A DNA stretch of 64,000 nt from Symbiodinium sp. CCMP2592 (taxonomy: Eukaryota; Sar; Dinophyceae; Suessiales; Symbiodiniaceae), in NCBI GenBank assembly GCA_905221615.1, contig CAJNDT010004624.1:248001-312000 (forward strand). The letters are read 5' to 3'. The notes beneath the pieces are model-generated. The model had not been told where the DNA came from, ran no database searches, and saw only the letters and a program-made list of their open reading frames with translations. Position 1 is the first letter of the stretch. The number at the start of each line of letters is the position of its first letter. Made by a program: the position numbers and the translations under genes. Below, piece after piece: positions 3,258 through 18,922 of the stretch.

Positions 3258-4088
3258 ATGGCGCAATTGCCAGTGCACTCACAAAACTTTGCATCTCTTC
3301 GTAAGAATTCGTTCAAGACAGCATGTAGAAGGACAGTCCGTAGTGACGGGCCCGTACCATACCGAGGGCAGGTTCTGACACCTACCCTGGTTGATCGTCT
3401 GGGGGTGCGCCCCCCACCCACTCGAAGAGAGCTTCAGTCACAGACTGCTGACTCCCCTGCATATGGCACAGCCTCCCGCAGGGCAGGAAGGTTGGAAAGA
3501 TCCATTCGAGTTCTTTCGTGGAACGCGGGCCACCTAGGCCAACAGCAATGGGGCGAACTCAAAACGTGGCTAGCAGCTGAAGCCTCTCATCACTGCGACA
3601 TCCTCATATTGCAGGAAACGCACTGGACTGAGACCAGTGAATTCAGCGTTTCTGGGTGGTACTGTATCTCCTCAGCCTCGGAGTCTACCAAACCCAACAC
3701 CCGGCCTAAACAAGCAGCGAAGCGAAACACTCGGCAAGAACCGCGAGCTCCATCCACGACTCGCGCTGATGGAGTCATGATCCTATTCTCTCCCAAGTTC
3801 GTCCCCAAGAGCTTACGCTGGAAGGAGTGGAGCCCGGGTAGAGTCTTAGAAGCTCGTGCGGACATTGCAGGTACTCGGCTGGTTGTTGTCGCGGTGTACC
3901 AACACGCTTGGTCTTCTGCCAAGACCATCCAGTCCAATAAGGACGACCGTGCTAAGGTACTATCTGTCATGTCCAAGGTGATCAAGCAGGTGCCTAAGAG
4001 GGACTCCCTTATTGTAGCAGGCGATTTTAACACCTCCCTGCGTCCGAGCTCCTCCATTGGTGGGAACGCACGTGAAGCCACCCACTGA
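3258..4088 (+). CDS. EEP/AP-type endonuclease, N-terminal part of the retroelement ORF (frameshifted)
   Basis: The 276-residue frame shows the first half of an exonuclease-endonuclease-phosphatase domain: a metal and substrate box (WNAGH, about residue 89), LQETHW with the catalytic Glu (about 120), and GDFN (about 256). Such domains nick target DNA to prime reverse transcription in LINE elements. The frame ends shortly after GDFN, and the missing second half (SQIDFIL, GHYPL) lies in the next ORF, which overlaps it by 32 bases in the +1 frame. This is either a decayed or misread base or a genuine frameshift site; copy 2 lacks this region, so it cannot be compared. A CACAG double hairpin (3435-3473) lies in frame in the N-terminal region, before the EEP domain. 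Confidence 0.8.
   Translation: MAQLPVHSQNFASLRKNSFKTACRRTVRSDGPVPYRGQVLTPTLVDRLGVRPPPTRRELQSQTADSPAYGTASRRAGRLERSIRVLSWNAGHLGQQQWGELKTWLAAEASHHCDILILQETHWTETSEFSVSGWYCISSASESTKPNTRPKQAAKRNTRQEPRAPSTTRADGVMILFSPKFVPKSLRWKEWSPGRVLEARADIAGTRLVVVAVYQHAWSSAKTIQSNKDDRAKVLSVMSKVIKQVPKRDSLIVAGDFNTSLRPSSSIGGNAREATH
3435..3473 (+). repeat. CACAG double hairpin D1
   Basis: CAGTC-ACA-GACTG (3435-3447) and GGC-ACA-GCC (3465-3473), 17 bases apart. It lies in frame upstream of the EEP domain. It is the only doublet in which the TGGCACAGCCTCC-type hairpin comes second. Confidence 0.85.
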
Positions 4089-7000
4089 GGACCGCCCTGA
4101 CGAATCCAACTTGTTCAATCTGCTGCTCAGGCTGCGTTTGGTTGCCCTTAACACCTGGCAATGTGACCATATAGCTACCTTCTCACAAGGAGGCGTGGAG
4201 TCGCAAATTGACTTCATTCTAACCAAAGAATCTACGGCGGGAGGCAAAGCCAAAAGGTCAGCCCCTTGGGTGGACTGTCCGTTGGGCAGCTGGAAGAAAG
4301 GAGGGCATTACCCACTCAAGGCTGACGTACCCCTCCAACACCACTGGCTGCTCCCGTCCCACAAACCCAGCACGCGCCGGTATGATTCACTAGCTCTACA
4401 AGCCTCAGTCAGGGAGGAGGACGATACGGCTAAGGCCCTGCACAACTGGATCGCTTCCAGAATCGACACCTGCCAGGACCCCAAGGCATGGAATGCGTTG
4501 CTTTTGGAAGGTGCAGAACGCTTTTTCCCAAAAATTCCCAAAAGAAGACCAATCCCGCTGGAATCGGAAACCCGTCGCATGTGGCGGGCCCGCACCCATG
4601 ACAGGGTTGCGAATACCACTCCCTCAGCACAGCTGATCGAGTCACCAAAAGCAATGGCACAGCCTCCTAATCAGAACTCGCCGCGTCCGCCGGAAACAGA
4701 AGCTGAGCTGGCACAAGTGGCACATCGCCAGGCTGTGAAACAAGCAAAGAAAAATCGAATTGCGAGTTTCATATCGGAGGTGGACGCGTGTCTAGCTGAA
4801 GGTGATCAACATATCTCTTTCCAGACCCTCAAAAAGCTGCAGCCTTGGCAGCCCGCGCGCAGAGCTCAGCTAAAGGACAACACAGGACACCTCCTAGGTC
4901 CAGCGCAGGAACTAGCAGCCCTCAGGGACTATGCCAATCAGGTATTTGCGGCCCACCCTCCGTTACGGACAATGCATGGAGCTTTCCCTGCTTTGGAGCC
5001 ACCCAAACTAGCAGCTCACATACATTCTATCAAGCCGAACAAAGCTGTTCCTGACGGAGCGGCACCAGCGGCTGTATGGAGGCTGTGTAGCGATCTCGTT
5101 GCACCGGTCCTCTCCGAACACGTAGCATCCAAGCAGGCCGAGGACAGTCTAGAATCCGACCTCGTAGACGCAGATCTCTGTTTAATACCCAAGCCGGGCA
5201 AGCCCTCTGACAAACCCGCAAACCTGAGACCCCTGGGCATCCTTAGACCTGACGCAAAGGGACTGGCGGGAGCGGCCAGAGAAGCGCTTCAACCACTGAC
5301 ACTCTCGTTCCTCAAGCACATGCCACAGTTCGCTTATCTACCAGGTCGGGGGCTGTCAGACGCGCTAGAACGCGTGGTGCATCACTTGCGAGAGGCTCGA
5401 TCCCTGTTAGAACAGGCTCACCCCACGAGACATGCCTTGCAACAAGGCACACAGGCCCCAGCCTTAGTCGGCGGCCTCACCTTTGCTCTTGACCTCAGCC
5501 AAGCGTTTGACACTGTCTCTCGCCAAGAGATCATCGACCTTCTTCAGAGAGAAGGGGCCGATCAGGACACAGTCCACCTTGTTCAGGCTCTACATGACGG
5601 GTCTCGTTATGTTCTTCACGCGCAGGGAGATTCCACCTCTGTTGAAACCACAGCAGGCATTAAACAAGGATGTAAGCTCGCCCCCACACTCTTCTCGTTC
5701 CTTACAGGTGACCTTTTCCGCTCTCTGGTTGACCTATTCGGTGCTGAGCAGGTCTTGAAATTCCTGACAGGCTATGCCGATGATCTCACGCTCCATCGGA
5801 CTATCCGCTCTGACAAGGACCTCAGGGCCATTCATGCTCTCATCGCAGCGCTACTTGAAGAGGTCCGCAAACACCGCCTTCGCGTCAACATTAGCAAGTG
5901 CGTCATCTTAGTGAAGTTAGCGGGAAGAGAATCCCAAAACGTGATGAACAAACATGGCTGCTGGATCACCAACTCCAAGGGCGAGCAGGTTCGCGGATGG
6001 CGCATAGGGCCCAACAAATCGTTCCCCGCCTTCCAGTGGGTCTCCTGTAGCAAGTACCTGGGGGTTATGATCTCCTACAACCACTTCGAGCTGCAGTCCT
6101 TACATTACCGCATTGGGGAAGCCAAGCAAAAGCTGCATCAAGTCCGCCAGTTTGTCTACAATCGCCGGCACGCGAGCACCATGTCGAGACTTAAGGTTTG
6201 GCAAAGCACAGTCCTGAGCACACTGACTACAGGCCTCTCAGATGTCGGACTTAGCGAGGAGTCGGCCAAGCAGCTACGCAGTTGGCATGCTTACAAGGTG
6301 CGATCAGTGCTGAACTTGCCAGCACACACCAGCCGCATCACCACTAAGGACCTCTTTCAGCTTTATAGCATTCAGGACCCAGTTCAAGCGATGCAGGTCA
6401 AGCTCAGGAAGCGACTCCGCAAACTTGAGCGGCGAGCAGCCAGAAGCCCAGATATCACAACCGATCCTTCTGTCCTGCAAGTCATCCGGGACAAGCTGCA
6501 TTTTATGTCACAGCTTCCTGAAACAGTTGAGCACCCTGTAGCCCTACATGCATGCACACTCTGCGATGCCTCCTTCGAGACAGTAAACGGGTTACACTTA
6601 CACAAGTCGAGAGTGCATCCAGCCAGCATTGACCGATTTGTGCCATCAAGCTTCGATCGGCAACTCCACGCGGTGGATGGGATGCCGCAATGTGCCGCTT
6701 GCATGCGCAAATTTCATCAATGGAAAGGTCTTCGTGACCACTTGTTGTCAGGAGCATGTCCGGAACCCCAGAAGCTTCGAACTCTGAACGTGGCTGACAA
6801 ACACTCAAGTCACCCTGAGGTAAGGACCCTGTCCCAGCTGCGACAGGACATTGCCCAACTCCCACAACATCGAATAGCGGTGATCTCAAAGACACCGGAG
6901 GCCCGGGTCCTGATCCATAGGTGCCTCACGTGTGACTTCTGGACTTTCGATCACACTAAAGTCAAGTCACACTTCCGTCAGGCGCATCCTAAGGACTGGT

Positions 7001-8109
7001 CAAGGCTGCACAAGCGCGCAGTCTCTATATGTCAGGGTTTCTCGCCTCACCTTGCCAAGGGACACCCGTGTTCATTCTGCGGCTATAAGGTCTATGATCG
7101 TCGACTGCACCCGGAACAATGTCCCGTACTTTATCAGGTGAGTACACAGTGGCTGCGAGGGCAACCGGAGGCAGAGGAAGCCGTTACTGCTCCCCCCTCC
7201 AAGCCCCAAGAACGGTCACTGACCCACTTCTTTAAGCCACGGTCGAATGGCACAGCCTCCAATCAGTCGAGCACAGCTCGTCACACCCCGGCAGACAAGC
7301 AGGCGTCTGATCCGCAGTCCTCAGGACAAGCGGAAATTAGACCCGAAGGAGTGCACAAACGCGCTCTGACTAACACGTCCAACTCGTGTTACGCCAATGC
7401 CCTATTCCAGGCTCTGCACCAGATCTCGAGCTTTGGGTATGACCTAGGTGCTTTCCAGTCCGTCCTATCCCATCTAGGCGACGAGCGAGCCCCCAGATTA
7501 CTGAACCTGTTCGGCTTGTTTGAATTTCGCCATGCCATCTCAGGCTGGCGACTTGACGGCAGACAGCATGGTGTCTCAGAGCTGCTTCTGCATATGCAGT
7601 CCAAGCCTTTCGGCTCCCTTCAACCAACCCAGTGGCAGGGTCGAACAGATGGCGAGGTTGAGGATTCAGATGTGGGAGTCAGCCCACTCCTTCTTCCTCT
7701 CCCGCCTGGCCCTCTGTCACTCTCGACTTGCTTACGGCTGTGGGAGTCCCAGATCTTCTCCCGAGCGCTAGTTTGGTCACCTGAACTCCTAGCAATTGTG
7801 ATTTGCCGCTGGCAGGATGGAGTCAAGAACACTCAGCCGTGTCTTTGGTCAGGCCGCACCACGGTGCCTGTATGGACCTCAAGTGATGCTCGCACTCAGC
7901 GTCACTATCAGGTCATAGCAGGAGTTGCCCATTTTGGGGACTCCCTTTCTTCTGGGCACTACCGCGCTTTTTGGCCAGAGGACCCAGCGGATACCGCCTC
8001 TCAGGTTTGGATCTCCGACGACTACAGGTTTCCGGAAAAGGCCTCAGCGGCCTTGAACCTGTCCATCTCCAGGAATGTCTACATGCTTTTCTTGCAACGA
8101 ATTCGCTAG
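4057..8109 (+). CDS. LINE-type polyprotein: EEP C-terminus, reverse transcriptase, C2H2 fingers, USP deubiquitinase
   Basis: The protein is 1350 residues. The N-terminus completes the EEP domain (SQIDFIL near residue 49, GHYPL near 83). The reverse transcriptase core follows: LIPKPGKPSDKPANLRPLGI near 380, DLSQAFD at 479, GIKQGCKLAP near 535 and YADD near 572. Four C2H2-like fingers lie at about 832-855, 880-903, 955-978 and 1003-1022. The last 250 residues look like a ubiquitin-specific protease (peptidase C19): a Cys box NTSNSCYANALFQAL (Cys 1111), a GHYRAF His box (His 1301) and WISDD with the acidic third residue near 1321. In this copy the residue after QH in the QDxxEL-type box is Gly, where copy 2 has Asp. 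In-frame double hairpins occupy the linkers before the reverse transcriptase and before the USP. The first Met may not be the real start, since the domain begins in the previous frame. Expected role: target-primed retrotransposition; removal of ubiquitin from host or element proteins is inferred from the fold only. Confidence 0.85.
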   Translation: MVGTHVKPPTEDRPDESNLFNLLLRLRLVALNTWQCDHIATFSQGGVESQIDFILTKESTAGGKAKRSAPWVDCPLGSWKKGGHYPLKADVPLQHHWLLPSHKPSTRRYDSLALQASVREEDDTAKALHNWIASRIDTCQDPKAWNALLLEGAERFFPKIPKRRPIPLESETRRMWRARTHDRVANTTPSAQLIESPKAMAQPPNQNSPRPPETEAELAQVAHRQAVKQAKKNRIASFISEVDACLAEGDQHISFQTLKKLQPWQPARRAQLKDNTGHLLGPAQELAALRDYANQVFAAHPPLRTMHGAFPALEPPKLAAHIHSIKPNKAVPDGAAPAAVWRLCSDLVAPVLSEHVASKQAEDSLESDLVDADLCLIPKPGKPSDKPANLRPLGILRPDAKGLAGAAREALQPLTLSFLKHMPQFAYLPGRGLSDALERVVHHLREARSLLEQAHPTRHALQQGTQAPALVGGLTFALDLSQAFDTVSRQEIIDLLQREGADQDTVHLVQALHDGSRYVLHAQGDSTSVETTAGIKQGCKLAPTLFSFLTGDLFRSLVDLFGAEQVLKFLTGYADDLTLHRTIRSDKDLRAIHALIAALLEEVRKHRLRVNISKCVILVKLAGRESQNVMNKHGCWITNSKGEQVRGWRIGPNKSFPAFQWVSCSKYLGVMISYNHFELQSLHYRIGEAKQKLHQVRQFVYNRRHASTMSRLKVWQSTVLSTLTTGLSDVGLSEESAKQLRSWHAYKVRSVLNLPAHTSRITTKDLFQLYSIQDPVQAMQVKLRKRLRKLERRAARSPDITTDPSVLQVIRDKLHFMSQLPETVEHPVALHACTLCDASFETVNGLHLHKSRVHPASIDRFVPSSFDRQLHAVDGMPQCAACMRKFHQWKGLRDHLLSGACPEPQKLRTLNVADKHSSHPEVRTLSQLRQDIAQLPQHRIAVISKTPEARVLIHRCLTCDFWTFDHTKVKSHFRQAHPKDWSRLHKRAVSICQGFSPHLAKGHPCSFCGYKVYDRRLHPEQCPVLYQVSTQWLRGQPEAEEAVTAPPSKPQERSLTHFFKPRSNGTASNQSSTARHTPADKQASDPQSSGQAEIRPEGVHKRALTNTSNSCYANALFQALHQISSFGYDLGAFQSVLSHLGDERAPRLLNLFGLFEFRHAISGWRLDGRQHGVSELLLHMQSKPFGSLQPTQWQGRTDGEVEDSDVGVSPLLLPLPPGPLSLSTCLRLWESQIFSRALVWSPELLAIVICRWQDGVKNTQPCLWSGRTTVPVWTSSDARTQRHYQVIAGVAHFGDSLSSGHYRAFWPEDPADTASQVWISDDYRFPEKASAALNLSISRNVYMLFLQRIR
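4624..4664 (+). repeat. CACAG double hairpin D2
   Basis: TCAGC-ACA-GCTGA (4624-4636) and GGC-ACA-GCC (4656-4664), 19 bases apart. Lies in frame in the linker between endonuclease and reverse transcriptase, encoding part of a Pro/Gln/Asn-rich segment. Confidence 0.85.
7249..7280 (+). repeat. CACAG double hairpin D3
   Basis: GGC-ACA-GCC (7249-7257) and CGAGC-ACA-GCTCG (7268-7280), 10 bases apart. Lies in frame in the Ser/Thr/Gln-rich linker between the zinc fingers and the USP domain. Confidence 0.85.
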
Positions 8110-8333
8110 CATCATCGCTAGGTGATGCATTCCGGCCCAGCTTCGTCCTCAAGGGCACTGCAGGGCGCCCGTGCGTGAGAAGCCTATAGTCAATTGAAAG
8201 TTGGCATAGGCCACCTCACGTCAAGGCCAAGTGCGTCATGCGCGCACGCGGATATGCACATACCGCAATACTTTTTCCTCTCAATCAGCTCGCCCTCTTT
8301 TTGTAAAGCTTCCGCTCCGACTACACGGCCGGC
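8110..8333 (+). other. inter-ORF spacer without a double hairpin
   Basis: The only gap between ORFs of this unit without a CACAG doublet. A different hairpin (GCATCA, 8-base loop, TGATGC; 8109-8128) overlaps the USP stop codon. Two pyrimidine-rich runs ending in AG (about 8271-8288 and 8290-8310) precede the next ATG and could be trans-splice acceptors; this is inference. Confidence 0.45.
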
Positions 8334-9128
8334 ATGACCGCTTCCCCTGTCGCCGTCAAGAGTCCGGAGCACAAACGCTCCAGAAACGGCACAGACAATG
8401 AGGACGCATCGGGAATGGATTTTTCAGAAGAGCCTCCACTCGAGTCACTCTCGCCTGCGGCCAAGGCCGCTGCCCTGCCGAGGCAGCAAGACCAGCCTCG
8501 CCGCAAATCAGTCCCGAGGCAGAAAGGACCTGGTGCGACCCAAGGGTTTGGGCAAGGCACCCAGCCTCGGGCGCAATCTGGTGCCATCCAGGCGCTGAGC
8601 CCGGAAGAGCTCACCAAAGCCTTCCTTGTGCACGACGACCAAATGAGCCTGCTGCAACACCAGCTATCACTGGTTTACAAACTACCTCAAGACCATCAGC
8701 TTTCGAAGGCATTAGTTGCGTCTGTGAAATCCTGGCAAGGAGGTTTGAAGAAGCTGCGCCAAGGAGAACCTCACCCCGAGGGATCATGCTCGAATGCGGT
8801 CTCCCTAGTTCTCCTCCACGAACTGACCAAGGGCAACCCTCCAGAACACGTGGACAAGACGGAGTACGGCAAGCTCCTGAAGGTGGTGGACTCCATGATC
8901 AACATCACTACCGACAAGACCAAGCTGGCACAGGAAATAGTGCACTGCTCTGCCAAGCCGAACAAGCTCAAGACGCACGTTATCCTCGACTTCAGGGTAG
9001 CCATCTACTCTGACCTCATGCCCTACCTCTCCCTCCTCGCCTCCCTCTTTGACTCCCATGATGGCTTTGAACGCCTGGGTCGCAAGGCGCCGGGAGGACT
9101 GGCCCGCAAGGCTCGAGGCCGTCCGTGA
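8334..9128 (+). CDS. unknown 264-aa protein with basic tail, ORF of the giant element
   Basis: No known family recognised. The first 95 residues are low-complexity (Ser, Pro, Arg, Gln, Lys rich) and probably disordered. Residues 96-240 look folded and mostly helical (for example FLVHDDQMSLLQHQLSLVYK). The tail is Gly/Arg/Lys-rich. A short acidic N-terminus, disordered basic part and helical body would fit a nucleic-acid-binding accessory protein like a LINE ORF1 product, but no RRM or zinc knuckle is visible, so this is speculation. The ATG is well placed after pyrimidine-rich sequence. Copy 2 (30692-31486) is the same length with few substitutions and no break, which supports a real coding frame. 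Double hairpin D4 follows the stop codon by 16 bases. Confidence 0.7.
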   Translation: MTASPVAVKSPEHKRSRNGTDNEDASGMDFSEEPPLESLSPAAKAAALPRQQDQPRRKSVPRQKGPGATQGFGQGTQPRAQSGAIQALSPEELTKAFLVHDDQMSLLQHQLSLVYKLPQDHQLSKALVASVKSWQGGLKKLRQGEPHPEGSCSNAVSLVLLHELTKGNPPEHVDKTEYGKLLKVVDSMINITTDKTKLAQEIVHCSAKPNKLKTHVILDFRVAIYSDLMPYLSLLASLFDSHDGFERLGRKAPGGLARKARGRP

Positions 9129-9144
9129 GCTTGGCCTAGTGGAA

Positions 9145-9178
9145 GCACACAGTGCACTAACTTCCTCAGCACAGCTGA
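9145..9178 (+). repeat. CACAG double hairpin D4
   Basis: GCAC-ACA-GTGC (9145-9155) and TCAGC-ACA-GCTGA (9166-9178), 10 bases apart, just after the stop codon of the 264-aa ORF. Confidence 0.85.
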
Positions 9179-9350
9179 TGTTCTGATCCGTCTTGCACTC
9201 TTCACTCACGTACAGCGTGACTAGCAAGGCTGCTGATTCTTTCAACAAAGTTCCAGCTGCGCATCAAAACGCAGGGAGCCTGTCGTGAGCAGATCACTTC
9301 GTTCCACTTGATCTCCTGAGCGCGCCAGCCTGGCTCGAGCCCTTAGCACT

Positions 9351-9602
9351 ATGGATCTCACACGGTTTGCGGACCTACCGGGCCCTGACCAAGTCCCGCA
9401 TTTCCTGAATCTGGTACATCAGCTGGACGAGATTCTCAAGCGCAAGGCCTCGCAACTCTATACAGACCCTTGCTCGGCGTCTTCTACCAGCTCTCAGACT
9501 GCCGAACGATGCACTTTGCCCTCTGGCAAGGCCCGTCCTCCAACACCGCCAGCTCCTAAACATCGACGAACTGACGCGGCTCCAGAACAGGACGCTACGT
9601 AA
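9351..9602 (+). CDS. small unknown ORF (83 aa) of the giant element
   Basis: An ATG-initiated frame lying between doublets D4 and D5. Residues 1-45 could form a helical pair; the rest is Ser/Thr/Pro-rich. It is unchanged in copy 2 (31709-31960), but sequence divergence there is too low to prove selection. It may be a separate small protein or the remnant of a larger one, because the frame after the stop still looks protein-like. No family recognised. Confidence 0.4.
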   Translation: MDLTRFADLPGPDQVPHFLNLVHQLDEILKRKASQLYTDPCSASSTSSQTAERCTLPSGKARPPTPPAPKHRRTDAAPEQDAT

Positions 9603-9741
9603 GCTCTTCCGAGAACTAGGCACAGTCGGCGGAGCCGGCTACCAGCGAGCAAAACTCATTGCCATGCGTTTTTTAGTTCCTGCTCTTGCACTCAACTGCT
9701 TTGCAACTAGGTCACAGGGCTCAAGCTACCAGTGGCAGGTA

Positions 9742-9774
9742 GCACACAGTGCAGCACGGATTCGTCACAGACGA
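9742..9774 (+). repeat. CACAG double hairpin D5
   Basis: GCAC-ACA-GTGC (9742-9752) and TCGTC-ACA-GACGA (9762-9774), 9 bases apart. The ATG of the kinase-like ORF lies 20 bases downstream. Confidence 0.85.
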
Positions 9775-9794
9775 TATCTCCCACTCACGCTGTG

Positions 9795-11016
9795 ATGGAT
9801 CGAGCTCCATATTCTGATGGAGTGCATGAGGCTCTTGGTCGGAGCCATATGCCTGGACTTCGACGACCGGTTGACCCCCAAGTGACTTCCGCCATCTCAC
9901 CAGAGCTCTTAGGCGTGAAGATCGCAAAGGGATACGCCAGCGCGGTCTTCAATTCCAGTGCTGCAAACTTTGTGCTCAAGAAAGTTACGAGGCCTCAGGA
10001 AGAGTACATGGCCAGAAGAGAGTTTAGCAGATTATCGAGATTCCCGCCCATCAACACCATCATCGAGGCTTTCTGGCAGCAGGGCCCAACGCTATTACTG
10101 CCACGTCTGTACCCTGCTCATATCCCCTCCATGACGACGGACCATGTCGTCAATCTCGTCGCTGACATCCGGTCTGCCCTCAACGCAGTGCATTCCAGCC
10201 AACTGGTTCACGCGGACATCCACATGGGCAACATCATGGTGCGTTACGACCCTCCCACCTATGTCCTGATCGATTTCGGCGGCACCGCGGGGGAAAGTGT
10301 TTATCCCTCTCAGCTTGGGCTATGGAGCCCTTGGCCAGGGAGGAATGCTTCATCGTCCTCCTCACGAACTCATGGAGCGACCCACCAGGACCGTCAGAGG
10401 CGACTACTACAGGCTCAGCAAGACGATCTCCGTCGAAGTCGTGGGCAACAAGTGCTGGCGCGACACTGCGTCGGGTTTCCCGATGCCCCCGAAACTCCCC
10501 AAGCACCTTCGCGTCGAGCTGGCAGAATGGGAGAATCTCGCTGGCCTCACTCCACCCAAATGGCCAGAATCTGCCTTTCCCGGAGGAAGCTGGTACGAGA
10601 CTGCCATCGATCCCTCGATCACCGTGCAAGCCGGCTTGTATGATGAAGCCGGCAACGTCCGACTGGCCACCGCCGTTTTCTCCTACTCCAGGCAGCAAAA
10701 ATCCAATGCATCCGGGCTCTTCGGGCCAGAAGATCCCAAACGGGCTTCTCTGGACTCTGGCAGCTGGGAGGAATCTGCTGCTTACGCTAGGTTCTTCCTA
10801 TCTTGCAGGCTCAGGACCATGGGCAGCCACATCCGGACCATGTACACGGAGGTCCTACCGTACCAAAAGTACAGCAACCAGGATGGCTACCTCATGCTGG
10901 AAAATGCTCTCGAGCACCCTCCACCTCCACCACCTCCTCCGGCTGCCAGCTCGAACGAGCCAGCGCCCTCGACACCGGCTACTGAGCTGCAGGGCATTTG
11001 GGCGGAAATGGACTAG
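9795..11016 (+). pseudogene. protein-kinase-like ORF, copy 1, broken by a 1-nt insertion
   Basis: Up to about 10303 the frame matches the intact kinase-like ORF of copy 2 (32152-33372): VLKK lysine box, HADIHMGN catalytic loop and IDFGG. A run of three C in GTTTATCCCTCTC (copy 2 has two) near 10307 shifts the frame; the rest of the protein continues in another frame to the stop at 11014-11016. The change could be a consensus error in a C run or a true allelic frameshift. All kinase core motifs lie before the break, so a truncated product would lose the region after the activation segment. Confidence 0.75.
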
Positions 11017-11028
11017 GCTTCAATCGCA

Positions 11029-11062: not shown

Positions 11063-11102
11063 TCCGCCACGCGGTTACTGTAACCAATTTGTCGCGGGAA
11101 AA

Positions 11103-11136: not shown

Positions 11137-11285
11137 TGTTCCAACGCCTACTGCCTACAGCACTGGCCTCAGCCCGAGAAAACACCTGTGCATCTGTTTG
11201 AGCGCAGTTGTCTGCACTTTTCAGCTTCCGCTTGCTTGAGCTCAGCTTAATCTCAGCTACTGGCTCCCCACTTGCGCGGGCGCAC

Positions 11286-12245
11286 ATGGCTGGCGAAGAT
11301 GACTGCCCCATCCGGGCCATTTCCTTTCCCGCCGGGGTCTTCGCAGACTACATGGATGACTACCTCACCCTTTCGGCGCTGAAGTTGTACTGTGCGGAGG
11401 CCCACGTGTCCCTGCCGCCGGCAGCGGGAACATGGCCATCAAATGACATCACGGCATGGGCATACAAAGCTCTCCCACCCCTACAGTGGCAGCAATTCGA
11501 GAAGTATCTCGAGTCCATGACTACCATGCCCTGCTCCGGGATGGAGGAAGGCTGCTTAGTCAATCCCATCCCACACGGAGGACTACTACACATGGTGCCA
11601 AAGGCAGAGCAGATAGCTAACAACTGTCTCACTTCTTGCTGTCTCTCCATCTTGTCCTCGGTCCGCCAGGTTCTGCAGCACTTACCTTTCGAGGCCCACG
11701 ACAGATGGGAGCACTCTCCCAGTGCGGCTGGCTCTTCACGTGGCCAGCGCTTTCGGGTTGGTGCCTACTGCCGAGTTCTCCCTGGCCTGCTCAAGGAGAC
11801 GGTCTCCCATCCCAACGTCACTCGTCTCTTCAACGCATTCGTGTGCTCATGTCATCCAAGTCACCAGTGGACTTCGCTTGAAATCTTAGTGGATGTGCAG
11901 TCCCCACCGCACAAAGATGCTCGCAACGCTGCCTTGGGCACTCTGCTCATCCCGATTTCGATTTGCGACCAGGGCGGCCTATGGATCGAAGACCCCGACG
12001 GCTGCGACTACCAGGAGATCCCGCACCAGCAGGGGATGACCCGGGGAAGTTGCTTTGACCTACGGGGTCTCAGCCTTCTCTTTCGGGCGGATGAGCTGTG
12101 GCATGCAACTCTACCATGGGAAACCTATACTCGTGTCGTTTTGGCGGCCTACACGGTAAGAGGCGTCTCTCGTTTCTCACCAACGCTGCAACAGCGCCTG
12201 ACAGAGCTGGGTTTTCGTCTGCCGCTAGGCACAGCAGATGATTAG
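11286..12245 (+). CDS. 2-oxoglutarate/Fe(II)-dependent oxygenase-like protein
   Basis: A 319-residue protein starting MAGEDD; this ATG is preferred over an upstream non-ATG extension. The facial triad expected of 2OG-Fe(II) oxygenases is visible: HKD (His 209, Asp 211) in SPPHKDARN, a distal His 273 in LWHATLP, and Arg 283 in TRVVLAAYT, 10 residues on, as needed to hold 2-oxoglutarate. GGLWIEDPDG between them fits the double-stranded beta-helix. Family members hydroxylate proteins, nucleic acids or small molecules; the substrate here is unknown. Prolyl-hydroxylase-type proteins are common in algae and their large DNA viruses. The pyrimidine run CTGCACTTTTCAG upstream is a possible trans-splice acceptor. 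Copy 2 (33643-34602) is intact with a few substitutions. Confidence 0.75.
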   Translation: MAGEDDCPIRAISFPAGVFADYMDDYLTLSALKLYCAEAHVSLPPAAGTWPSNDITAWAYKALPPLQWQQFEKYLESMTTMPCSGMEEGCLVNPIPHGGLLHMVPKAEQIANNCLTSCCLSILSSVRQVLQHLPFEAHDRWEHSPSAAGSSRGQRFRVGAYCRVLPGLLKETVSHPNVTRLFNAFVCSCHPSHQWTSLEILVDVQSPPHKDARNAALGTLLIPISICDQGGLWIEDPDGCDYQEIPHQQGMTRGSCFDLRGLSLLFRADELWHATLPWETYTRVVLAAYTVRGVSRFSPTLQQRLTELGFRLPLGTADD

Positions 12246-12252
12246 TTCGAAT

Positions 12253-12283
12253 GGCACAGCCTCCTGAGCTGAGACACAGTCTC
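12253..12283 (+). repeat. CACAG double hairpin D8
   Basis: GGC-ACA-GCC (12253-12261) and GAGAC-ACA-GTCTC (12271-12283), 9 bases apart, directly after the oxygenase stop codon. Confidence 0.85.
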
Positions 12284-12429
12284 CGACCACCATCTCTGCT
12301 TGTCGGTTAAAGTTATAGCAGGAATTAAAGCACACGTGCTTCTATGCATCGCAGTAACAAATCACTGCCATTCTTCAGTCCTTTTAGGCTCCCAAGTTTG
12401 GCTCTGCCTCCATTCGCTAGCCTGCCACG

Positions 12430-13089
12430 ATGGAGGACGCATTTGTTCAGCGAATCTTCCACTTCCTGACGCCGATGCTTCTAAGCCTCGACTTCTACCT
12501 GCGGCTGATAGACCTGGATCACACAGCCATCGACGGCTCGAGCAGCCAGTCCAGCCTCACGGGACCAGGCCTCACCCCAACCGAGGACGCGTTTCGTATG
12601 GACAGATCGACAGCAGCCAGAACAGGTCTCCTGAAACTTCTCCAAGAGTGCTTCAACCACTGGCCGACCCTCTCCATCAATTACGTCCCCCCCTCTGCGC
12701 CGGACACACCGGACCTGACTGACATGCACCTTATCTACGAGGTCACGCAGCCGCGTCTAAAACAGGTTCGACGACTTGCCACTGTCAACCGAGTATGGCA
12801 TGACCTCATATCAGCCATGATCTCTGGTCAAGCCCGCATCAATACAGTGGAACTTTTGGTGGCGATGTCACGCCTGCGCAAGACAGGCTCAGTGTCGATT
12901 CGGGAAGGCCGGGATATCTTCTGCCTCCCGGTCTCGATGGCGTTTCGACTGCCGGTTGAGACCCTCACTTCACCTCTGGCACGCACAGCTCCCGCCGCTG
13001 CCTACCGAGCCTCGGGCTTCAATGCCTGGCATGCGCTCCTCTTTGACAGCTACGATGACCTGCAGAATGCGCACGCGCCCCAGGACTGA
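12430..13089 (+). CDS. F-box-like tandem paralogue 1 (219 aa)
   Basis: First of three consecutive ORFs that share a layout: an N-terminal (F/Y)LxPxxLxLDxY-type segment, a spacer, then a motif with hydrophobic spacing and V-x-R-x-W (RLATVNRVWHDLISAMISG, near residue 115), followed by a helical RxxxxLRKxG stretch. The middle motif resembles the second half of an F-box (LxxLxxVxRxW), a Skp1-binding helix pair in SCF ubiquitin ligases, but an F-box is usually N-terminal and the likeness is weak. The start is the ATG after GCCTGCCACG. Copy 2 (34784-35443) is intact. Beyond the likeness to its two neighbours I cannot assign a function. Confidence 0.6.
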   Translation: MEDAFVQRIFHFLTPMLLSLDFYLRLIDLDHTAIDGSSSQSSLTGPGLTPTEDAFRMDRSTAARTGLLKLLQECFNHWPTLSINYVPPSAPDTPDLTDMHLIYEVTQPRLKQVRRLATVNRVWHDLISAMISGQARINTVELLVAMSRLRKTGSVSIREGRDIFCLPVSMAFRLPVETLTSPLARTAPAAAYRASGFNAWHALLFDSYDDLQNAHAPQD

Positions 13090-13123
13090 TCAGCAGGTGA
13101 CGACTACAGCGTAGCTCTCAGAA

Positions 13124-13161
13124 GCGCACAGCGCACCTCTGCTGGCATTAGGGCACAGCCC
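13124..13161 (+). repeat. CACAG double hairpin D9
   Basis: GCGC-ACA-GCGC (13124-13134) and GGGC-ACA-GCCC (13151-13161), 16 bases apart, in the gap after the 219-aa ORF. About 230 bases without a gene follow before the next ATG. Confidence 0.85.
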
Positions 13162-13393
13162 ACGGCCGATCACCGAAACATTGGCTGGTGCGACGGCCGA
13201 GCAACAGGCCTAACTGAGCCATTAAGGTTTCTAACTTTTTGAAGCTAGCACCTCTGCTCTCGGCTTGAAAACTGGGAATCCTCCGCGCCAGCCAGAGTTA
13301 GTAGTGCGCTCACTTTGACTTGAGCTACCTCTCGGCACGTCCCCTGCTGCCTGCCAGTCTCTGTCAGCTAGCTCCCAGCGTCCCATAACTGCC

Positions 13394-13906
13394 ATGGACG
13401 AGCTCTCTCTGCGCCAAGCTATGAAATACCTGCTCCCAGGGGTACTAACACTCGACTCCTACGACGCCTCGCCCTATCCCGTCTCCTACTGGAACGATCT
13501 GGACCTTCTTCATGATGAAGCTCGTGCCACTCGGGATCGCCTACGTGACCTACTTCTACGTTGGGCTCGTACGGGTCCCTTCTCGCAGTACTCCATTATT
13601 GGCGACACACTCAGGATTGACCACAATGGAGTGCATGCTCAGCTCGGCATCGTCAATCTCAATCTGCTACAAGCAATACCGCTTGCGGCGGTTTGCCGTG
13701 CGTGGTACTCCGTAACTGCCCGCCTCATCGACGGCAAACCCTGGATAGGAGTGTGGCGAGCCTACATCCAACTGCGGAAGCAAGGAGCAGGAGTTTTCAT
13801 TGAAGTACTGCCAGATCAAGCCGGCACCCTTTCGAGAGAGGCCATCAGCGTCCACTATGAGCAGGTGCACTTCATTCCGACCTCAGTCTTGCGACGTCCT
13901 CTATAG
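13394..13906 (+). CDS. F-box-like tandem paralogue 2 (170 aa)
   Basis: Begins MDELSLRQAMKYLLPGVLTL, matching the N-terminal pattern of the neighbouring ORFs (hydrophobic stretch, Pro, LxLDxY). The central motif is LLQAIPLAAVCRAWYSVTAR near residue 97, aligned by eye with RLATVNRVW of paralogue 1 and LASVSKSW of paralogue 3. It is followed by IDGKPWIGVWRAYIQLRKQG and a beta-rich tail. It is the shortest of the three. Copy 2 (35748-36260) is intact with a handful of amino-acid changes. The function is unknown; an SCF-adaptor-like role is conceivable only if the F-box likeness holds under profile search. Confidence 0.6.
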   Translation: MDELSLRQAMKYLLPGVLTLDSYDASPYPVSYWNDLDLLHDEARATRDRLRDLLLRWARTGPFSQYSIIGDTLRIDHNGVHAQLGIVNLNLLQAIPLAAVCRAWYSVTARLIDGKPWIGVWRAYIQLRKQGAGVFIEVLPDQAGTLSREAISVHYEQVHFIPTSVLRRPL

Positions 13907-13913
13907 GGCAAAG

Positions 13914-13945
13914 GGCACAGCCTCCAGACAATTGGTCACAGACCA
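13914..13945 (+). repeat. CACAG double hairpin D10
   Basis: GGC-ACA-GCC (13914-13922; a further G-U pair is possible in RNA) and TGGTC-ACA-GACCA (13933-13945), 10 bases apart, just after the stop of paralogue 2. Confidence 0.85.
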
Positions 13946-14090
13946 TGCGACGAGCCGGGCTTCTCCACTTTGGAAAAGGCAAACCCGATCAGCGTTGCCC
14001 CTTAGCGTTGCGGCTCACTGTTGCGCTTTTAAGTAAGTTTCTCCGCAGTTTTTTCTAGGTTGCTCTCAGCTGCCCTGCCAACCATAGAGG

Positions 14091-14723
14091 ATGTCATCCC
14101 CTCTCTGCACCGAATCATGTCGCTGCGCTCTCTCCTTCATCATTCCTGCAGTGGTGGTTGTGGATTTCTACTCGGACTACGGTTTGGACAGGGACATGCT
14201 GGCAACTGAAATCGCTGCATTCAGACCTCCCTGGACTATAGTTCCCATACTGCTGCTCCGGAACGAGATCCAGGACCAAGCACGCCTCTGGGCCTTTCGC
14301 CGTTTACATAAAGGCCTAGCTGTCTTTGCGCAACGGTACGAAGACACTGACTATGACCAGCAGGGCGTCCATGTCAGACTAGCGATACCGCAGCCAGACT
14401 TGCTGACAGCCCTCTCACTGGCGTCGGTTAGCAAATCCTGGTGCGCAGCAGTGCTCTCCCAGGTGGAGCATAAGCTCTTTGTAAGTCCACACCGCACTGC
14501 CAGGGCAGCTATGTCTCTCGGCCTACGTGTCATGGTCCAGTCCTTTGACACGCCCCAGTGGCACCTCGCGTCCGAGGAGCTCACCATCCACATTCAGCAC
14601 AGCCAACAGGTAGTGGTGCAGAAGTTCCGGAACCCCCGTAACCCGGACGGGCCAACGGCAACCATCAGCCGAGAAGCAGAGGAATCCAGTGCTCTCTACG
14701 ACCACTACTACAGACTTTTCTGA
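14091..14723 (+). CDS. F-box-like tandem paralogue 3 (210 aa)
   Basis: N-terminus FIIPAVVVVDFYSDYGLD fits the shared pattern. The central PDLLTALSLASVSKSW (near residue 103) is the best F-box-like match of the three, with Leu-rich spacing and a V-S-K-S-W ending. It is followed by a helical segment and a beta-rich tail (LTIHIQHSQQVVVQKF). The arrangement of three diverged relatives in a row suggests old tandem duplication inside the element, each copy now separated by its own double hairpin. Upstream, TTTCTCCGCAG and TTTTTTCTAG are pyrimidine-AG runs that could be trans-splice acceptors. Copy 2 (36445-37077) is intact. Confidence 0.6.
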   Translation: MSSPLCTESCRCALSFIIPAVVVVDFYSDYGLDRDMLATEIAAFRPPWTIVPILLLRNEIQDQARLWAFRRLHKGLAVFAQRYEDTDYDQQGVHVRLAIPQPDLLTALSLASVSKSWCAAVLSQVEHKLFVSPHRTARAAMSLGLRVMVQSFDTPQWHLASEELTIHIQHSQQVVVQKFRNPRNPDGPTATISREAEESSALYDHYYRLF

Positions 14724-14767
14724 GCAATTCGGGCCATAGGCAGTTCACTGACTCACGCAAGGAAAGT

Positions 14768-14800
14768 GGCACAGCCTCCGATCAGGTGTGGCACAGCCAC
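14768..14800 (+). repeat. CACAG double hairpin D11
   Basis: GGC-ACA-GCC (14768-14776) and GTGGC-ACA-GCCAC (14788-14800), 11 bases apart, after the stop of paralogue 3. Confidence 0.85.
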
Positions 14801-15155
14801 CCAACTTGTCACAGTCAGCGACGAGTGGCCCCCCTGCCCAGAGAAATCGACGTTGCAGCATGCTAACACTCAGCTACTTGCATCTTTGTTTGCTCTTACC
14901 TGCGATCTGAGGTCTCAGCTACCACACGGCACCAGCTCTCCAGCCCGAGTGCCCTCTGCTGGTGTTCTTTGCCTATAGTCGTCCTGCGTTGCTTGAGCTT
15001 CGTGCTTGGTCTTGAGACTCTGCAAAGCATTACATGTATACCGCAGCTGTCAGTTCGAACTGTTGCTACCGGACAGAGCGGCAGGAGTATCGCAACATGC
15101 ATTACAGACACGCCTTGCAGAAGCTACCTCTCGTAACAAACTGCGTTTTTGCGAA

Positions 15156-15190
15156 GAGCACAGCTCACCACCTGGCCGCGTGTCACAGAC
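15156..15190 (+). repeat. CACAG double hairpin D12
   Basis: GAGC-ACA-GCTC (15156-15166) and GTC-ACA-GAC (15182-15190), 15 bases apart, ending 27 bases before the ATG of the glycosyltransferase-like ORF. The copies differ by one base in the spacer, none in the hairpins. Confidence 0.85.
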
Positions 15191-16245
15191 TCTGGCCCAT
15201 CAGCTACAGCTGAGACCATGGACAAACCTCCCAGTCTGGGCCCTTTTCTGGTGCTCAGCGATAGCACCTTGCAGCACATGCTGCGGGGACACACTTATGG
15301 AGTGTTCCCGCTGCTGACGGGACAGGTCTTAAGCTGTCCAGGCGCCGCCCTCAACATCTCTGCCGGCAGCGTCCCCTCCATCTTGGAGCTCCTCCACTGG
15401 CAATTTGGGCTCTTTGGGCCGCACAAATTCACAGCGGCAGTGCAGAGTCCGCCGGTGGCCTCCATCTTGGAGAACCACCTCGACGGACAAATCAACGTTC
15501 GCTTCATTCCGCTGTCCCGAAGCCTGCGCCCGGAGAAGCAAATCAATTATGACTACCTGATCGATGGCAGGGTCCAATATGGTTTTGCGGACAAGAACCT
15601 GCACAACCAGGAAATCATGGACCTGGCCCAGATGCCTGGTGTAGGAGGGGTAGAATGGCTCTACAACTCCAAGAACCTCCACTTCCGCCCCGACGTCGCG
15701 GACATTGTCATCCCGGCGCTTGTAACCAGAGCCATCGAGGAAATGCGCAACACCCCAGGACTGCCTGTCCTCGTGGTCGCTGGTTGGAACGCTCGCGAGC
15801 AGGACATGCATGTCGAAATGCTAGCTGCCCAGGCTCTGTCACAATGCCGAACGGTCCGTGATCTTTCAGAGGTAGCCATGCAATACGGACATGGCCCCTG
15901 GGGAATGCGCTTCACACACCTCCCAGAATGGGAAGCCGCCCCTGTCCCAGCCCTTCTCTTCCAGACCTACGTTCACGACGAAAAGCCGGAACCGGCCCAA
16001 GTTGCGGCCAAAATGTTTGCTGGCTTCACCCGCAGATTCTGTGATGATGATGTTCTTCGGGCTACCCTGCGGCAGCTCGCAGGAAAGTACGGCTCCAATC
16101 TGCTGGATCGCCTCAGCCAACCTGCTCATCGAGCAGACGTGTTCCGCTACGTCTACCACTACCAGCACGGCGGCCTCTACGTCGACATCAAATGTGGCTT
16201 CGTGGTACCTTGGGAACAGGTACTCGTGTATCTCGCAGCAGATTG

Positions 16246-16291
16246 GAGCACAGCTCACTCAAAGAAGGCAGGTGAAGTGGGTCACAGACCC
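16246..16291 (+). repeat. CACAG double hairpin D13
   Basis: GAGC-ACA-GCTC (16246-16256) and GGGTC-ACA-GACCC (16279-16291), 22 bases apart, the widest spacing seen. It is in frame inside the glycosyltransferase-like domain, between GGLYVD and HPLMREAIQHAF, encoding an extra Ser/Lys/Gly/Pro-rich loop. Confidence 0.85.
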
Positions 16292-16780
16292 TCCCCACCT
16301 GGCCAACTCCCACAGGAGTTCATGGTCATGGCCATAGGAGTCAAAGGAGATCATATTTTTCAAGGCATCATCTATGGCAAGCCCAGACACCCCTTGATGA
16401 GGGAAGCCATACAGCACGCCTTCAGCCGTCAGGTCATGACAGCGAAGGCAAACTTGGAATACATGACCTTCTGCAAATATCTTTGGCAGATCTTGGGTCG
16501 CGACCTTGGTCACTCCCCTCAGCCGGGATGGAATGTTTCCACCAAATTTGGCCCCATCTACCTGTTCTCGGAGCGCTGGGACAAGCGAGTGAAGAACAAG
16601 AAGTACGACAATGATGGCCACTACTTCGTGACTACCAACAACACGACCGTTGCATATACCCGGTGCTGGAAGTGGCTGAAGGGATTTCAGGGAGACCCAA
16701 CCACCAAAGAACGCACAGACCGCATGCTGCAGAGCCAACTCCCTGACATCTCCCTTGAAATCCAGTCTGACAGACCTGAA

Positions 16781-16816
16781 GAGCACAGCTCACCACAGCC
16801 ACCTAGGTCACAGACC
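16781..16816 (+). repeat. CACAG double hairpin D14
   Basis: GAGC-ACA-GCTC (16781-16791) and GGTC-ACA-GACC (16806-16816), 14 bases apart, in frame between the glycosyltransferase-like and zinc-finger modules. An ATG in good context (ACCATGG) begins at 16817, the base after the second stem. The copies differ at one spacer base. Confidence 0.85.
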
Positions 16817-18399
16817 ATGGCAACCGCCTCATCGGCTCCCCCCCCTCCCACTCAGGAGGATATTGAAGCCTATGTGGCCGACAGTATCCAGTACAACTCC
16901 TTTGCAGAGATCATGGCTACGGTCCGTGAAACCCACCACTACAATCAAGACCTTACAGAGCAGGATGTGCTGGAGCTTATCCCTCGAGGATTAGGGCAAG
17001 TGAAAGTCTCGGGGGACATGTGGCTATGCTGCTTGCACTGCCGCAAGCACAACAGGCAGGTGCAATTCAGCACTAGCCACGGCCTTAAGAACCACTTTGT
17101 CACTCAGAAGCACAACCCAGCACTCAGTGCCACGCCAGCCCCCCACACTCCCCCCCCTCCTCCTCCCCCCAAGCTCCCACAGGAAATTCCTCTTCCCCCC
17201 AGCAGTACCAGGACCAAAGGTGTAGACAAAGCAGCCGGCTTTGAGCCGCCACCCTCCCCCCCGTGCCCTTTCACTTCCTCCGCAGCTGAAAAGGCGGCCT
17301 TCAAAGCAGGCCAAGCAGAGACACCGAAGGCGGCCCCGGCGCCTCCGGTTAAGGCCCCACCGCCCATGGTGGCCACCCAATGCCCCCCGCCCTCTTCTTC
17401 ATCGGCGGCACCAGCCCCCCCTCCGGCAATTCCGGTTCCCCCGATCCTTCCGCACCCCCCCAAGTCCGTCTCTCCTCCAACCAGGCCGCCCTGCGCTCCC
17501 ACACGCCCCCTCCTCCCTCTTCCCGCCCCCCGTCAGCATATGAGCCTCCGGAATCCAATGCGGAACTCGTCGGCTATGTCCCACAGCCGGCTCCACGGCT
17601 GACAGTACGTTACACGCGGCAGGAGCTGGCTCAGCTGCTGAGCTCCCAATCCCATCAGGACTGGATTCGGGCCTTAGCTTCCATCAACATCCTGGTGGCT
17701 CCGGTCATTCTTGGCGGCCTCACCAACCAGGAACAACAGACCCTTTGGTCTACCAGGATGGAAGCACTCCGAGAAGTTCCGCCGCTGTTCTCTGCCATCA
17801 AGTCCGTAAGGACGCAAACTGGCCTCACATGGGACACCGCCATGTCGGTGAGGCGGGTCCTCACAAGCGATGGGAAGGTCACCATCGCCACAGGCGCGGG
17901 TGACGCCTACCGTGAGCTGGACGCACCAACAAAAGTGCATGGCCTTATCCATGCCTGCTTTAACAAGATGTGGGACGAAAAGGCTTTTCGGCAGCACTTC
18001 CCCTCGTGGGTCGAGTTCAATATGATCGCCACCACCATAGTGGCAGTCTACAATGAGACGGCCAAATCAGCTGGACTCCCAGCTCGTGTCTTCCGGGTCA
18101 AACCCGACAAAAATGCCTACTCCATCATGAAGATGCGGATACAGCATGACAAGGGGAACGAAGAGGACAAGCGCATGGCCAAACTGGCTGCTGCTGCCCC
18201 TAACAAGCGCCCACAGATGCAGGAGGCTGACACAGAGGGCAAGCGGCAGCGCGATGGCCCCTCCTCATCCTCCTCGTCCCAGTGGGCCAGACAGGCACGC
18301 TCATCTCAGGACGACGACTGGGACTGGTGGCAGCAGTGGTCCTGGCATGGATACTCTCAGCAGTGGCCAAAAGGTCATGATCAGTGAGGGCGGTAATAT

Positions 18400-18432
18400 G
18401 TCACAGACTCTATGATCCCTTATGTCACAGAC
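18400..18432 (+). repeat. CACAG double hairpin D15
   Basis: GTC-ACA-GAC at 18400-18408 and again at 18424-18432, 15 bases apart, 12 bases after the last stop codon. Both partners belong to the TGTCACAGACTC subtype. Confidence 0.8.
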
Positions 18433-18910: not shown

Positions 18911-18922
18911 TAGTAGTAGTAG

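Follow-up and report, generated by a model that had tools for sequence, protein, structure and literature searches.

Paired triloop hairpins along a giant LINE-like element of a dinoflagellate as candidate sites of self-recognition

A giant LINE-like element in a dinoflagellate genome carries 15 pairs of small CACAG hairpins, each a C-G pair closing the triloop ACA, distributed along 15 kb of one strand. The hairpins are conserved among copies, and a sister family has other loops, in part at corresponding places. We give a probability of about 0.45 to the reading that the element uses these doublets, scattered over its RNA, as recognition sites through which ribonucleoproteins assemble and its own transcript is preferred. 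All of the data come from one genome.

A giant LINE-like element with paired hairpins

The element (family A) occupies positions 2880..18919 on the plus strand of the window, the 64,000-nucleotide stretch of DNA analysed here. At about 16 kb it is very large for a LINE. The 5′ boundary is approximate, as alignments of copies L053, L061 and L067 begin at window positions 2815-2882, and the 3′ motif CAGCGTTCAATTGAAAAATAGTAGTAG lies at C4623:266893-266919, equivalent to window 18893-18919. Its endonuclease (EN) and reverse transcriptase (RT) match PF03372 (apurinic-type endonuclease) and PF00078 above cut-off, with LINE-1 ORF2p and R2 as PDB matches. Repeated copies end at the same two termini, and self-comparison revealed no long direct repeat linking the element ends. 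The tail TTCAATTGA is present in 9 of 11 family-A loci, the exceptions being L057+058 and L061+062 (the latter missing the 3′ part of the element), and also in B1, B2, C335 and C3068. With EN and RT in a discrete unit that has a conserved 3′ tail and no LTRs, the element has the marks of an APE-type non-LTR retrotransposon. Insertion is seen next to TAG microsatellites, which would mask target-site duplications.

Among the other copies, L065+066 begins at an assembly gap, while L049+050 and L059+060 begin mid-element next to unrelated sequence; these two may be interrupted copies, because the sequence 21 kb upstream of L049+050 contains a matching 5′ doublet. A second copy in the window (28291..41370, plus strand, 98.67% identical) adjoins a 100-N gap and is possibly an assembly or haplotype duplicate. 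The copies are spread over many contigs, the longest of them 4 Mb, and on this basis we take them as nuclear; a pattern for one doublet (12253..12283) has 157 matches genome-wide. The dinoflagellate spliced-leader sequence gave 429 matches, compared with 0 for a control. Together with the EN/RT domains and the common ends of the copies, this supports the proposal of the first-pass annotation that the hairpins belong to a nuclear retroelement, here of a dinoflagellate.

That annotation had described 30 hairpins arranged as 15 doublets within 15 kb, and our recount at 3435-18432 agrees, with all of them on one strand. The stems divide into ten of 3 bp, ten of 4 bp and ten of 5 bp, and the spacers measure 9-22 nt, as had been reported. 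Of the 32 hairpins with a stem of at least 3 bp, 30 are partnered, whereas the annotation had described every one as partnered; two 4-bp hairpins stand alone, one within RT (5565..5575, identical in 7 of the 10 other copies fetched) and one at 17886..17896 (identical in L049, L053 and L065). Shuffled sequence, named beforehand as the refuting comparison, gave a mean of 0.012 doublets (maximum 1 in 500 shuffles) and 0.59 hairpins of at least 4 bp (maximum 4), against 15 and 22 observed. CACAG is the sole strongly enriched triloop in this interval (22; the runner-up loop has 3). The minus strand of the window contains zero CACAG hairpins of at least 4 bp. A further 13 doublets all fall inside the duplicate, and the 34,090 bases outside both elements contain neither a doublet nor a 4-bp hairpin on either strand, in line with the absence that the annotation noted in other single-copy regions. 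The 39,647 bases beside other copies hold two hairpins of at least 4 bp and one doublet (both strands). Predicted stability is unexceptional (z-scores of -2.3 to +0.4), and both hairpins form in the minimum free energy fold of 13 of the 15 doublets, as read by eye. The stem-adjacent bases vary with stem class: T..TC for 3-bp stems (3′ TC in 10/10, 5′ T in 9/10), A..A for 4-bp stems and pyrimidines for 5-bp stems.

Constraint among copies and a sister family with other loops

In comparisons with up to 11 other copies, 0.75% of stem sites and 0.4% of loop sites are changed, compared with 12.7% in spacers and 16.5% in flanks. Nine pair-cells are altered, six of them by changes of both bases that keep Watson-Crick pairing; the altered pairs also include one G-U and two A-C, both A-C in the decayed copy L057, a mixture that would be compatible with strand-specific action as DNA as well. 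Doublet 5 (9742..9774), for example, has a stem pair changed from T-A to G-C in L061 and L067, and both hairpins of doublet 13 (16246..16291) are compensated in L055+056, the second keeping Gly-His-Arg-Pro. Compensatory changes, whose absence had been named as the other refuting result, are present, though few; together with the density they support the annotation's view that it is structure and not sequence that is conserved. In the divergent L055+056 just two doublets are strict and the loop at some other sites is ACC or GCC; doublet 9 (13124..13161) is absent from L051+052, L059+060 and L063+064. Doublet 15 is kept in the short derivative C3068. Between the window copy and C3068, synonymous sites are unchanged at 10/10 positions in hairpins and 444/860 outside. 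The same test was marginal for the kinase-like ORF (97/2000 random placements) and not significant for the glycosyltransferase-like ORF (4/7 vs 94/192; 648/2000).

The EN-RT of a sister family, B, is about 50% identical to that of family A. Family B has no CACAG doublets, although B1 contains two single CACAG hairpins of 4 bp. It carries instead hairpins of the types C(AAT)G and C(ACT)G, some of which form pairs at linkers and stop codons corresponding to those of family A. Their counts far exceed chance (18 vs 0.25, 10 vs 0.16 and 10 vs 0.11), and the minus strand has no C(AAT)G hairpin of at least 3 bp in B1 and C335 or of at least 4 bp in B2. At three aligned sites AAT and ACT are exchanged with the stem retained. 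A 5′ G accompanies the AAT hairpins in 12/13, 17/18 and 10/10 cases and the ACT hairpins less often (6/8, 3/5 and 3/3). Between B3 and B2, hairpin codons of ORF1 are synonymously unchanged at 33/35 sites, compared with 819/1339 outside, a sparing matched by 0/2000 random placements; the reverse comparison gives 35/37 and 817/1336.

These observations bear on the idea that selfish hairpin micro-elements, like the double-hairpin elements of organelles, invaded the LINE. The hairpins are indeed short, paired and palindromic, and two linkers of family A contain additional residues at places where family B is without CACAG doublets. However, they lie on a single strand at mostly fixed positions across copies, are under purifying selection at synonymous sites, have a loop tied to the family and are nearly absent beside the elements read. 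Selfish invasion is already contradicted by this pattern, and we regard it as very improbable.

Placement of the doublets along the reading frames

The element has the layout EN-RT-finger-USP followed by about eight cargo ORFs, all on the plus strand. The ORF1 region (3255..8109) encodes EN, RT, C2H2-like fingers recognized by eye and a ubiquitin-hydrolase (USP) domain, its frame in the window copy being broken within EN. Downstream are an ORF without assigned function that is common to family B at about 40% identity (8334..9128); a kinase-like ORF (9711..11016) with Pkinase/ABC1/APH-type matches, ABC1 alone above cut-off, which is a 434-aa single frame in L053 and two overlapping frames in the window copy; an ORF without a Pfam match (11202..12245); three distant paralogues (12421..14723; individually 12421-13089, 13319-13906 and 14088-14723); and a glycosyltransferase-like ORF with a C-terminal extension (15137..18387), which has a DXD motif and a PF04488 match just below cut-off and reads through as a single frame of about 1086 aa in many copies but is broken in the window copy. 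Neither an RNA-binding domain nor a coat-like protein was recognized among the ORFs scanned.

Three doublets belong to ORF1: doublet 1 (3435..3473; stems of 5+3 bp, the second hairpin having an outer helix of 6 bp) lies just upstream of EN, doublet 2 (4624..4664; 5+3) in the coding sequence of the EN-RT linker, and doublet 3 (7249..7280; 3+5) in the coding sequence that joins the fingers to the USP domain. Seven follow stops: doublet 4 (9145..9178; 4+5) by 16 nt, after ORF 8334-9128, doublet 6 (11029..11062; 4+3) by 12 nt, doublet 8 (12253..12283; 3+5) by 7 nt, doublet 9 (4+4) by 34 nt, doublet 10 (13914..13945; 3+5) by 7 nt, doublet 11 (14768..14800; 3+5) by 44 nt and doublet 15 (18400..18432; 3+3) by 12 nt after the last stop. 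Doublet 5 (4+5) precedes the first ATG of the kinase-like ORF by a short distance, and doublet 7 (4+5) is at 11103..11136. Of the remainder, doublet 12 (15156..15190; 4+3) is at the start of the glycosyltransferase open frame, before the first ATG-to-domain part, doublet 13 (4+5) within the glycosyltransferase coding sequence and doublet 14 (16781..16816; 4+4) in the open frame downstream of that domain.

Because doublets sit 7-44 nt past seven stops, we considered translation control on a polycistronic RNA, where they would hold or release terminating ribosomes or aid reinitiation, those within ORFs being remnants of cistrons that have fused or places where ribosomes pause at domain joints. 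In L053 the distances past the seven stops are 16, 12, 7, 34, 7, 44 and 12 nt; random placement gives a mean of 0.30 such stops and never reached seven in 20000 trials. Hairpins of B3 likewise begin 8 nt past both main downstream stops fetched, and doublets 2 and 3 are at domain joints. Dispersal by itself leaves the post-stop doublets of L053 unexplained, which counts against recognition sites. On the other hand, the ORF1 stop, the first point of reinitiation, has no hairpin nearby (1035 nt in the window copy, 514 nt in B3), and about 140 nt separate the small ORF 9312-9599 from the next doublet. Furthermore, three B3 hairpins (3261, 3298 and 3597) are inside the RT domain, hairpins occupy different codon frames, and it is hard to see what a family-specific loop would do in translation. 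We consider translation control the main rival to recognition sites, though an unlikely one.

The positions between ORFs, directly past stops, would also suit cleavage or end formation that yields separate mRNAs for spliced-leader trans-splicing, and the host has the dinoflagellate spliced leader. However, doublets of family A and hairpins of family B also occur inside ORF1, including RT, where cutting would destroy the message; copies that run end to end show that uncut RNA served as template, and the window contains no spliced-leader relic. Such processing appears improbable. Pairing at 9-22 nt might alternatively suggest that the stretch between hairpins is excised as a micro-intron, as at XBP1/HAC1. 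Yet the frames are open straight through the coding doublets, the spacer length is fixed in these (4624, 7249, 16246 and 16781) among the copies read but variable in several non-coding ones, and the distance from loop to loop is not always divisible by three; we give excision almost no weight. Paired splice hairpins of the IRE1 type have seven-base CNGCNGN loops and lose the spacer, and this candidate was rejected given the triloop ACA and the frames that stay open without excision.

The tandem ORF-plus-hairpin units, the doublet behind each of the three paralogous ORFs and the different cargo of families A and B could point to DNA-level sites, at which extruded or single-stranded hairpins serve to link or swap ORF cassettes, in loose analogy to integron attC. 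Against this, the family-A copies read all have their cargo in one order, hairpins occur within single domains and, among the ORFs scanned, none was recognized as a recombinase, making cassette exchange quite improbable.

Known RNA hairpins and a candidate self-recognition code

One well-worked case of cis-recognition comes from L2-clade LINEs and involves a single 3′ stem-loop: the proteins of zebrafish ZfL2-1 and ZfL2-2 bind the stem-loop in the 3′ tail of their own RNA, with specificity residing in the loop, which differs between these related elements, and with the stem recognized generally so that stem swaps are tolerated, as described in PMC4176376. Like these stringent-type LINEs, families A and B have different loops (ACA vs AAT/ACT) and free stems. 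Unlike them, the element has 15 pairs spread over 15 kb rather than a single stem-loop in the 3′ tail, and its 3′ tail motif is common to both families. Dispersed packaging stem-loops of STNV and enteroviruses similarly share a short loop motif, with an irrelevant stem sequence reported for STNV (PMC3593212, PMC7793301); the LINE differs in its triloops, pairs and post-stop sites and in having no recognized coat protein. Roquin constitutive decay elements are triloop hairpins of free stem sequence, sometimes in tandem, described from mRNA 3′UTRs with YRN loops and stems of at least about 6 bp (PMC6294493), whereas the loops here are ACA or AAT/ACT, the stems mostly 3-5 bp and the sites also coding. 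The suggested likeness to organellar double-hairpin elements extends to two short hairpins side by side and is otherwise superficial: those are described as potentially mobile repeats with no known function (PMC2800124; Adenoides plastid minicircles figure in a title cited in PMC1679814), while the present ones are selected, strand-specific and in a LINE that we take as nuclear. Our literature search found no described counterpart of these doublets.

Returning to recognition sites, we infer action on RNA rather than DNA, along with a binding protein, its identity and the purpose of the hairpins. That stem sequence is free, the loop specific to the family and the flanks constrained suggests a protein that reads the loop. 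The doublets would be cis-acting hairpins along the full-length sense RNA, and the putative reader, most likely from ORF1, would recognize the triloop, the C-G closing pair and the unpaired stem-adjacent bases while being indifferent to stem sequence. A cargo protein is an unlikely reader because B2 and C3068 keep hairpins without any cargo ORF matches. With many sites per RNA, often in side-by-side pairs, the protein might coat its own transcript and so prefer it over others, and each family would tag its own RNA by its loop, ACA in A and AAT or ACT in B. More tentatively, with odds somewhat worse than for recognition sites in general, we hypothesize that each LINE family has a private triloop password, repeated along coding and non-coding RNA and read by a co-evolving element protein.

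How LINE proteins find their own RNA is a long-standing question, and two sister families in one genome with natural loop swaps at many sites allow recognition to be tested directly. Among the genes that the elements carry are kinase-like, glycosyltransferase-like and ubiquitin-hydrolase ones, and the dense, constrained hairpin pattern offers a handle for finding related elements with diverged proteins. If the password proposal is true, tiny hairpins would provide an intragenomic self/non-self code that separates competing families and host RNAs.

Hairpin doublets and their carrier element

A scan for CACAG with a paired stem finds 32 hairpins with stems of at least 3 bp on the plus strand at 3435–18432, and 30 of these are arranged as 15 doublets, each consisting of two hairpins side by side. 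This bears out the first-pass annotation, which had counted 15 doublets from 30 hairpins; its statement that every hairpin has a partner holds for 30 of the 32 and fails for those at 5565 and 17886, which are single and have stems of 4 bp each. The density is above chance, as had been proposed, with 22 hairpins of at least 4 bp observed versus a mean of 0.59 in shuffled sequence, and 15 doublets versus a mean of 0.012. On the minus strand, the window contains no CACAG hairpin with a stem of at least 4 bp. A second copy of the element, at 28291–41370 next to a 100-N gap, has 98.67% identity and contains thirteen of the doublets again. The 34,090 bases of the window outside both element copies contain no CACAG doublets, nor hairpins of at least 4 bp, on either strand, and the claim that other single-copy regions lack them stands. 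An Rfam search returned no family reaching the gathering score, and a tRNA search found none.

The window also holds a 22-kb tandem duplication (5933–28190 versus 28291–50641), joined at the 100-N gap, whose identity is 98.67% over the LINE and 99.79% beyond it and which could be a duplicate stemming from haplotypes or from the assembly. Microsatellites of the (TAG)n type (2352–2955, 18911–19779, and 41277–41370) border both ends of the element, in the window as well as in several further copies; the LINE may have TAG repeats as its target or may produce them. Toward the right-hand end of the window (54852–56182 and 62120–62730), tandem repeats of a 44-bp type form inverted arrays, and a 768-aa ORF on the minus strand at 52367–54673 has no Pfam matches.

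The ORFs across the region all run in the same direction. ORF1 combines an endonuclease (EN, PF03372), a reverse transcriptase (RT, PF00078), zinc-finger-like motifs recognized by eye, and a ubiquitin-hydrolase domain (USP). After it come an ORF resembling kinases, three ORFs that are distant paralogues of one another, an ORF resembling glycosyltransferases, and others of unknown kind. The three paralogues, consecutive at 12421–14723 and about 200 aa long, are 16–19% identical to the first of them and lack Pfam matches, and a doublet stands after each. Across the genome (1.098 Gb, 5383 contigs), a one-doublet pattern has 157 matches (control 0) and a wider pattern 687 (control 5); among the 88 matches of the wider pattern listed with their letters, 2 seem unrelated by eye, and the remainder look like instances of four known doublets or divergent versions. 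Gene order is the same in the ten further copies compared. Where copy ends are reached, there is a common 5′ start beside TAG repeats, and the 3′ tail continues into (TAG)n. The 3′ tail motif is found at 9 of the 11 loci of family A and in 4 of 5 other elements, the sequence of the fifth stopping short of its end. Of the candidates for 5′ truncation, one has its start at an assembly gap, and interruption of the copy may explain the other two. In one copy (G000 C1:2294933 to C1:2316027), two doublets are 21 kb apart, compared with 5 kb in other copies, which suggests that it was split by another insertion, and the copy L065+066 carries an inverted-repeat insertion within its TAG tail, past joined position 16600. 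The spliced leader of dinoflagellates has 429 genome matches (control 0), which places the host in this group. No relatives of the element RT were found in IMG/VR, and the 40 matches of a short DNA pattern on viral contigs are likely due to chance, as the pattern has 17 fixed bases.

Conservation in family A and the loops of family B

Changes were counted against the window copy over as many as 11 other copies of family A, some of which lack one or more doublets, and all data are from one genome; the alignments of L063+064 at 13124, L057+058 at 16246, and L055+056 at 16781 were left out as non-homologous. Stem sites are changed in 15 of 1995 cells and loop sites in 3 of 750, compared with 1221 of 7418 cells in flanks of up to 30 nt; spacers are changed in 209 of 1643. 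Nine pair-cells are altered (cells rather than events, as two changes are each common to two copies): six are double Watson–Crick replacements, one is G–U, and two are A–C, both in the decayed copy L057. Compensatory changes among copies are thus present, if few, and the earlier proposal that structure is conserved rather than sequence is supported by these counts. One G–U versus two A–C is too thin a tally to discriminate RNA from DNA. The doublet at 13124 is absent from three copies, and L055+056 has just two strict doublets left; in its glycosyltransferase ORF, one hairpin has both sides of a pair and the loop (ACA to ACC) altered, with Gly-His-Arg-Pro kept.

The element downstream of the copy L067+068, a member of the sister LINE family B, has EN and RT about 50% identical to those of family A (45–68% by segment). 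It contains no CACAG doublets and two single 4-bp CACAG hairpins. Its plus strand carries 18 C(AAT)G hairpins of at least 4 bp (shuffle mean 0.25), and its minus strand none of at least 3 bp. Ten such hairpins occur in B2, a shorter relative, and ten in the partly decayed C335, while B3, with open ORFs and a sequence lacking the 3′ end, has 13 AAT and 8 ACT hairpins. At three aligned family-B sites AAT is replaced by ACT with the stems unchanged. A G lies 5′ of the stem in 12/13, 17/18, and 10/10 AAT hairpins, and less frequently in ACT hairpins (6/8, 3/5, and 3/3). Several family-B hairpin pairs, 19–50 nt apart, fall at family-A doublet locations when positions are matched by eye. These are the linkers that join EN to RT and the fingers to USP, and the stretches following the homologue of the ORF at 8334–9128 and the kinase ORF. 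An explanation by host splice-site or AG signals was rejected because family B has a different core, and a role of the doublets as the 3′-end signal for the RT was rejected because both families share a 3′ tail with its own sequence.

The cargo ORF at 8334–9128 and its family-B counterpart (L076:6286–6966), of unknown function, are about 40% identical overall but almost the same over a C-terminal part that contains many basic residues. Short EN-RT-USP-only derivatives exist in both families (L074/L075, C3068; L070/L071, C63), and the B2 short form seems to have been recently amplified, with many copies of one common score and a 1647-aa frame.

Constraint on synonymous sites and flanking bases

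Codons with identical amino acids were compared inside and outside hairpins, using 2000 random placements. For ORF1 of B3 versus B2, 33 of 35 such codons are unchanged inside hairpins and 819 of 1339 outside, which none of the 2000 placements reaches; the reverse comparison gives 35/37 versus 817/1336. For the window versus C3068, a short family-A derivative, the values are 10/10 and 444/860 (9/2000 placements). The kinase ORF is marginal (11/11 versus 268/433; 97/2000), and in the glycosyltransferase ORF the difference lacks significance (4/7 versus 94/192; 648/2000), in part owing to the compensatory nature of the changes there. Protein function can hardly account for such synonymous constraint, which speaks for selection acting on the nucleic acid. 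Conservation at the protein level was rejected, since synonymous change is avoided in the hairpins and these lie in differing codon frames.

Flanking bases in family A follow stem length: 3-bp stems have a 5′ T (9/10) and a 3′ T-C (10/10), 4-bp stems an A on one side (9/10) and on the other (10/10), and 5-bp stems pyrimidines on either side (10/10), counts that are not independent, as some of the ten hairpins per class may have common ancestry. The second hairpins of family-A doublets are often extended by an outer helix beyond an internal loop (score sum 119 versus 51, SD 15; count reached by 1 of 1000 controls). Such helices are unsupported for family-A first hairpins and for B3, and form no part of our main claim.

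Position of the doublets and a possible role

In the copy L053, eight main ORFs end downstream of ORF1, and for seven of them a doublet lies 7–44 nt past the stop. The seven come from a count that excludes overlapping alternative frames, the broken N-terminal glycosyltransferase piece of L053, and ORFs below 170 aa, among them 9312–9599. Random placement gives a mean of 0.30 such stops, and seven were never reached in 20000 trials. The eighth, small ORF (9312–9599) is about 140 nt from a doublet in the window, and no doublet follows the ORF1 stop. Five doublets lie in coding sequence, at domain joints, with one within the glycosyltransferase domain. Because of the stop-codon positions, we retain translation control by the doublets as a less probable reading.

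We infer that the hairpins act as RNA. Their free stems, fixed loop, constrained flanks, confinement to one strand, and family-dependent loop point to a putative protein that would read the loop. Hairpins persist in short elements in which cargo ORFs are not detected, and so a cargo product is a less likely reader than ORF1 or a host protein. No title or abstract opening among the open-licence PubMed Central papers that we found describes hairpins of this kind in a LINE. The region between EN and RT of two zebrafish LINEs is reported to bind its cognate stem-loop in a loop-specific manner (PMC4176376); this loop reading is like that proposed here, but takes place at the 3′ tail. In small RNA viruses, assembly is known to be promoted by dispersed loops (PMC3593212, PMC7793301). 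We favor, with a probability of roughly 45% judged from sequence, the proposal that the doublets would be dispersed self-recognition sites on the element's own RNA, their loops being read by the putative protein.
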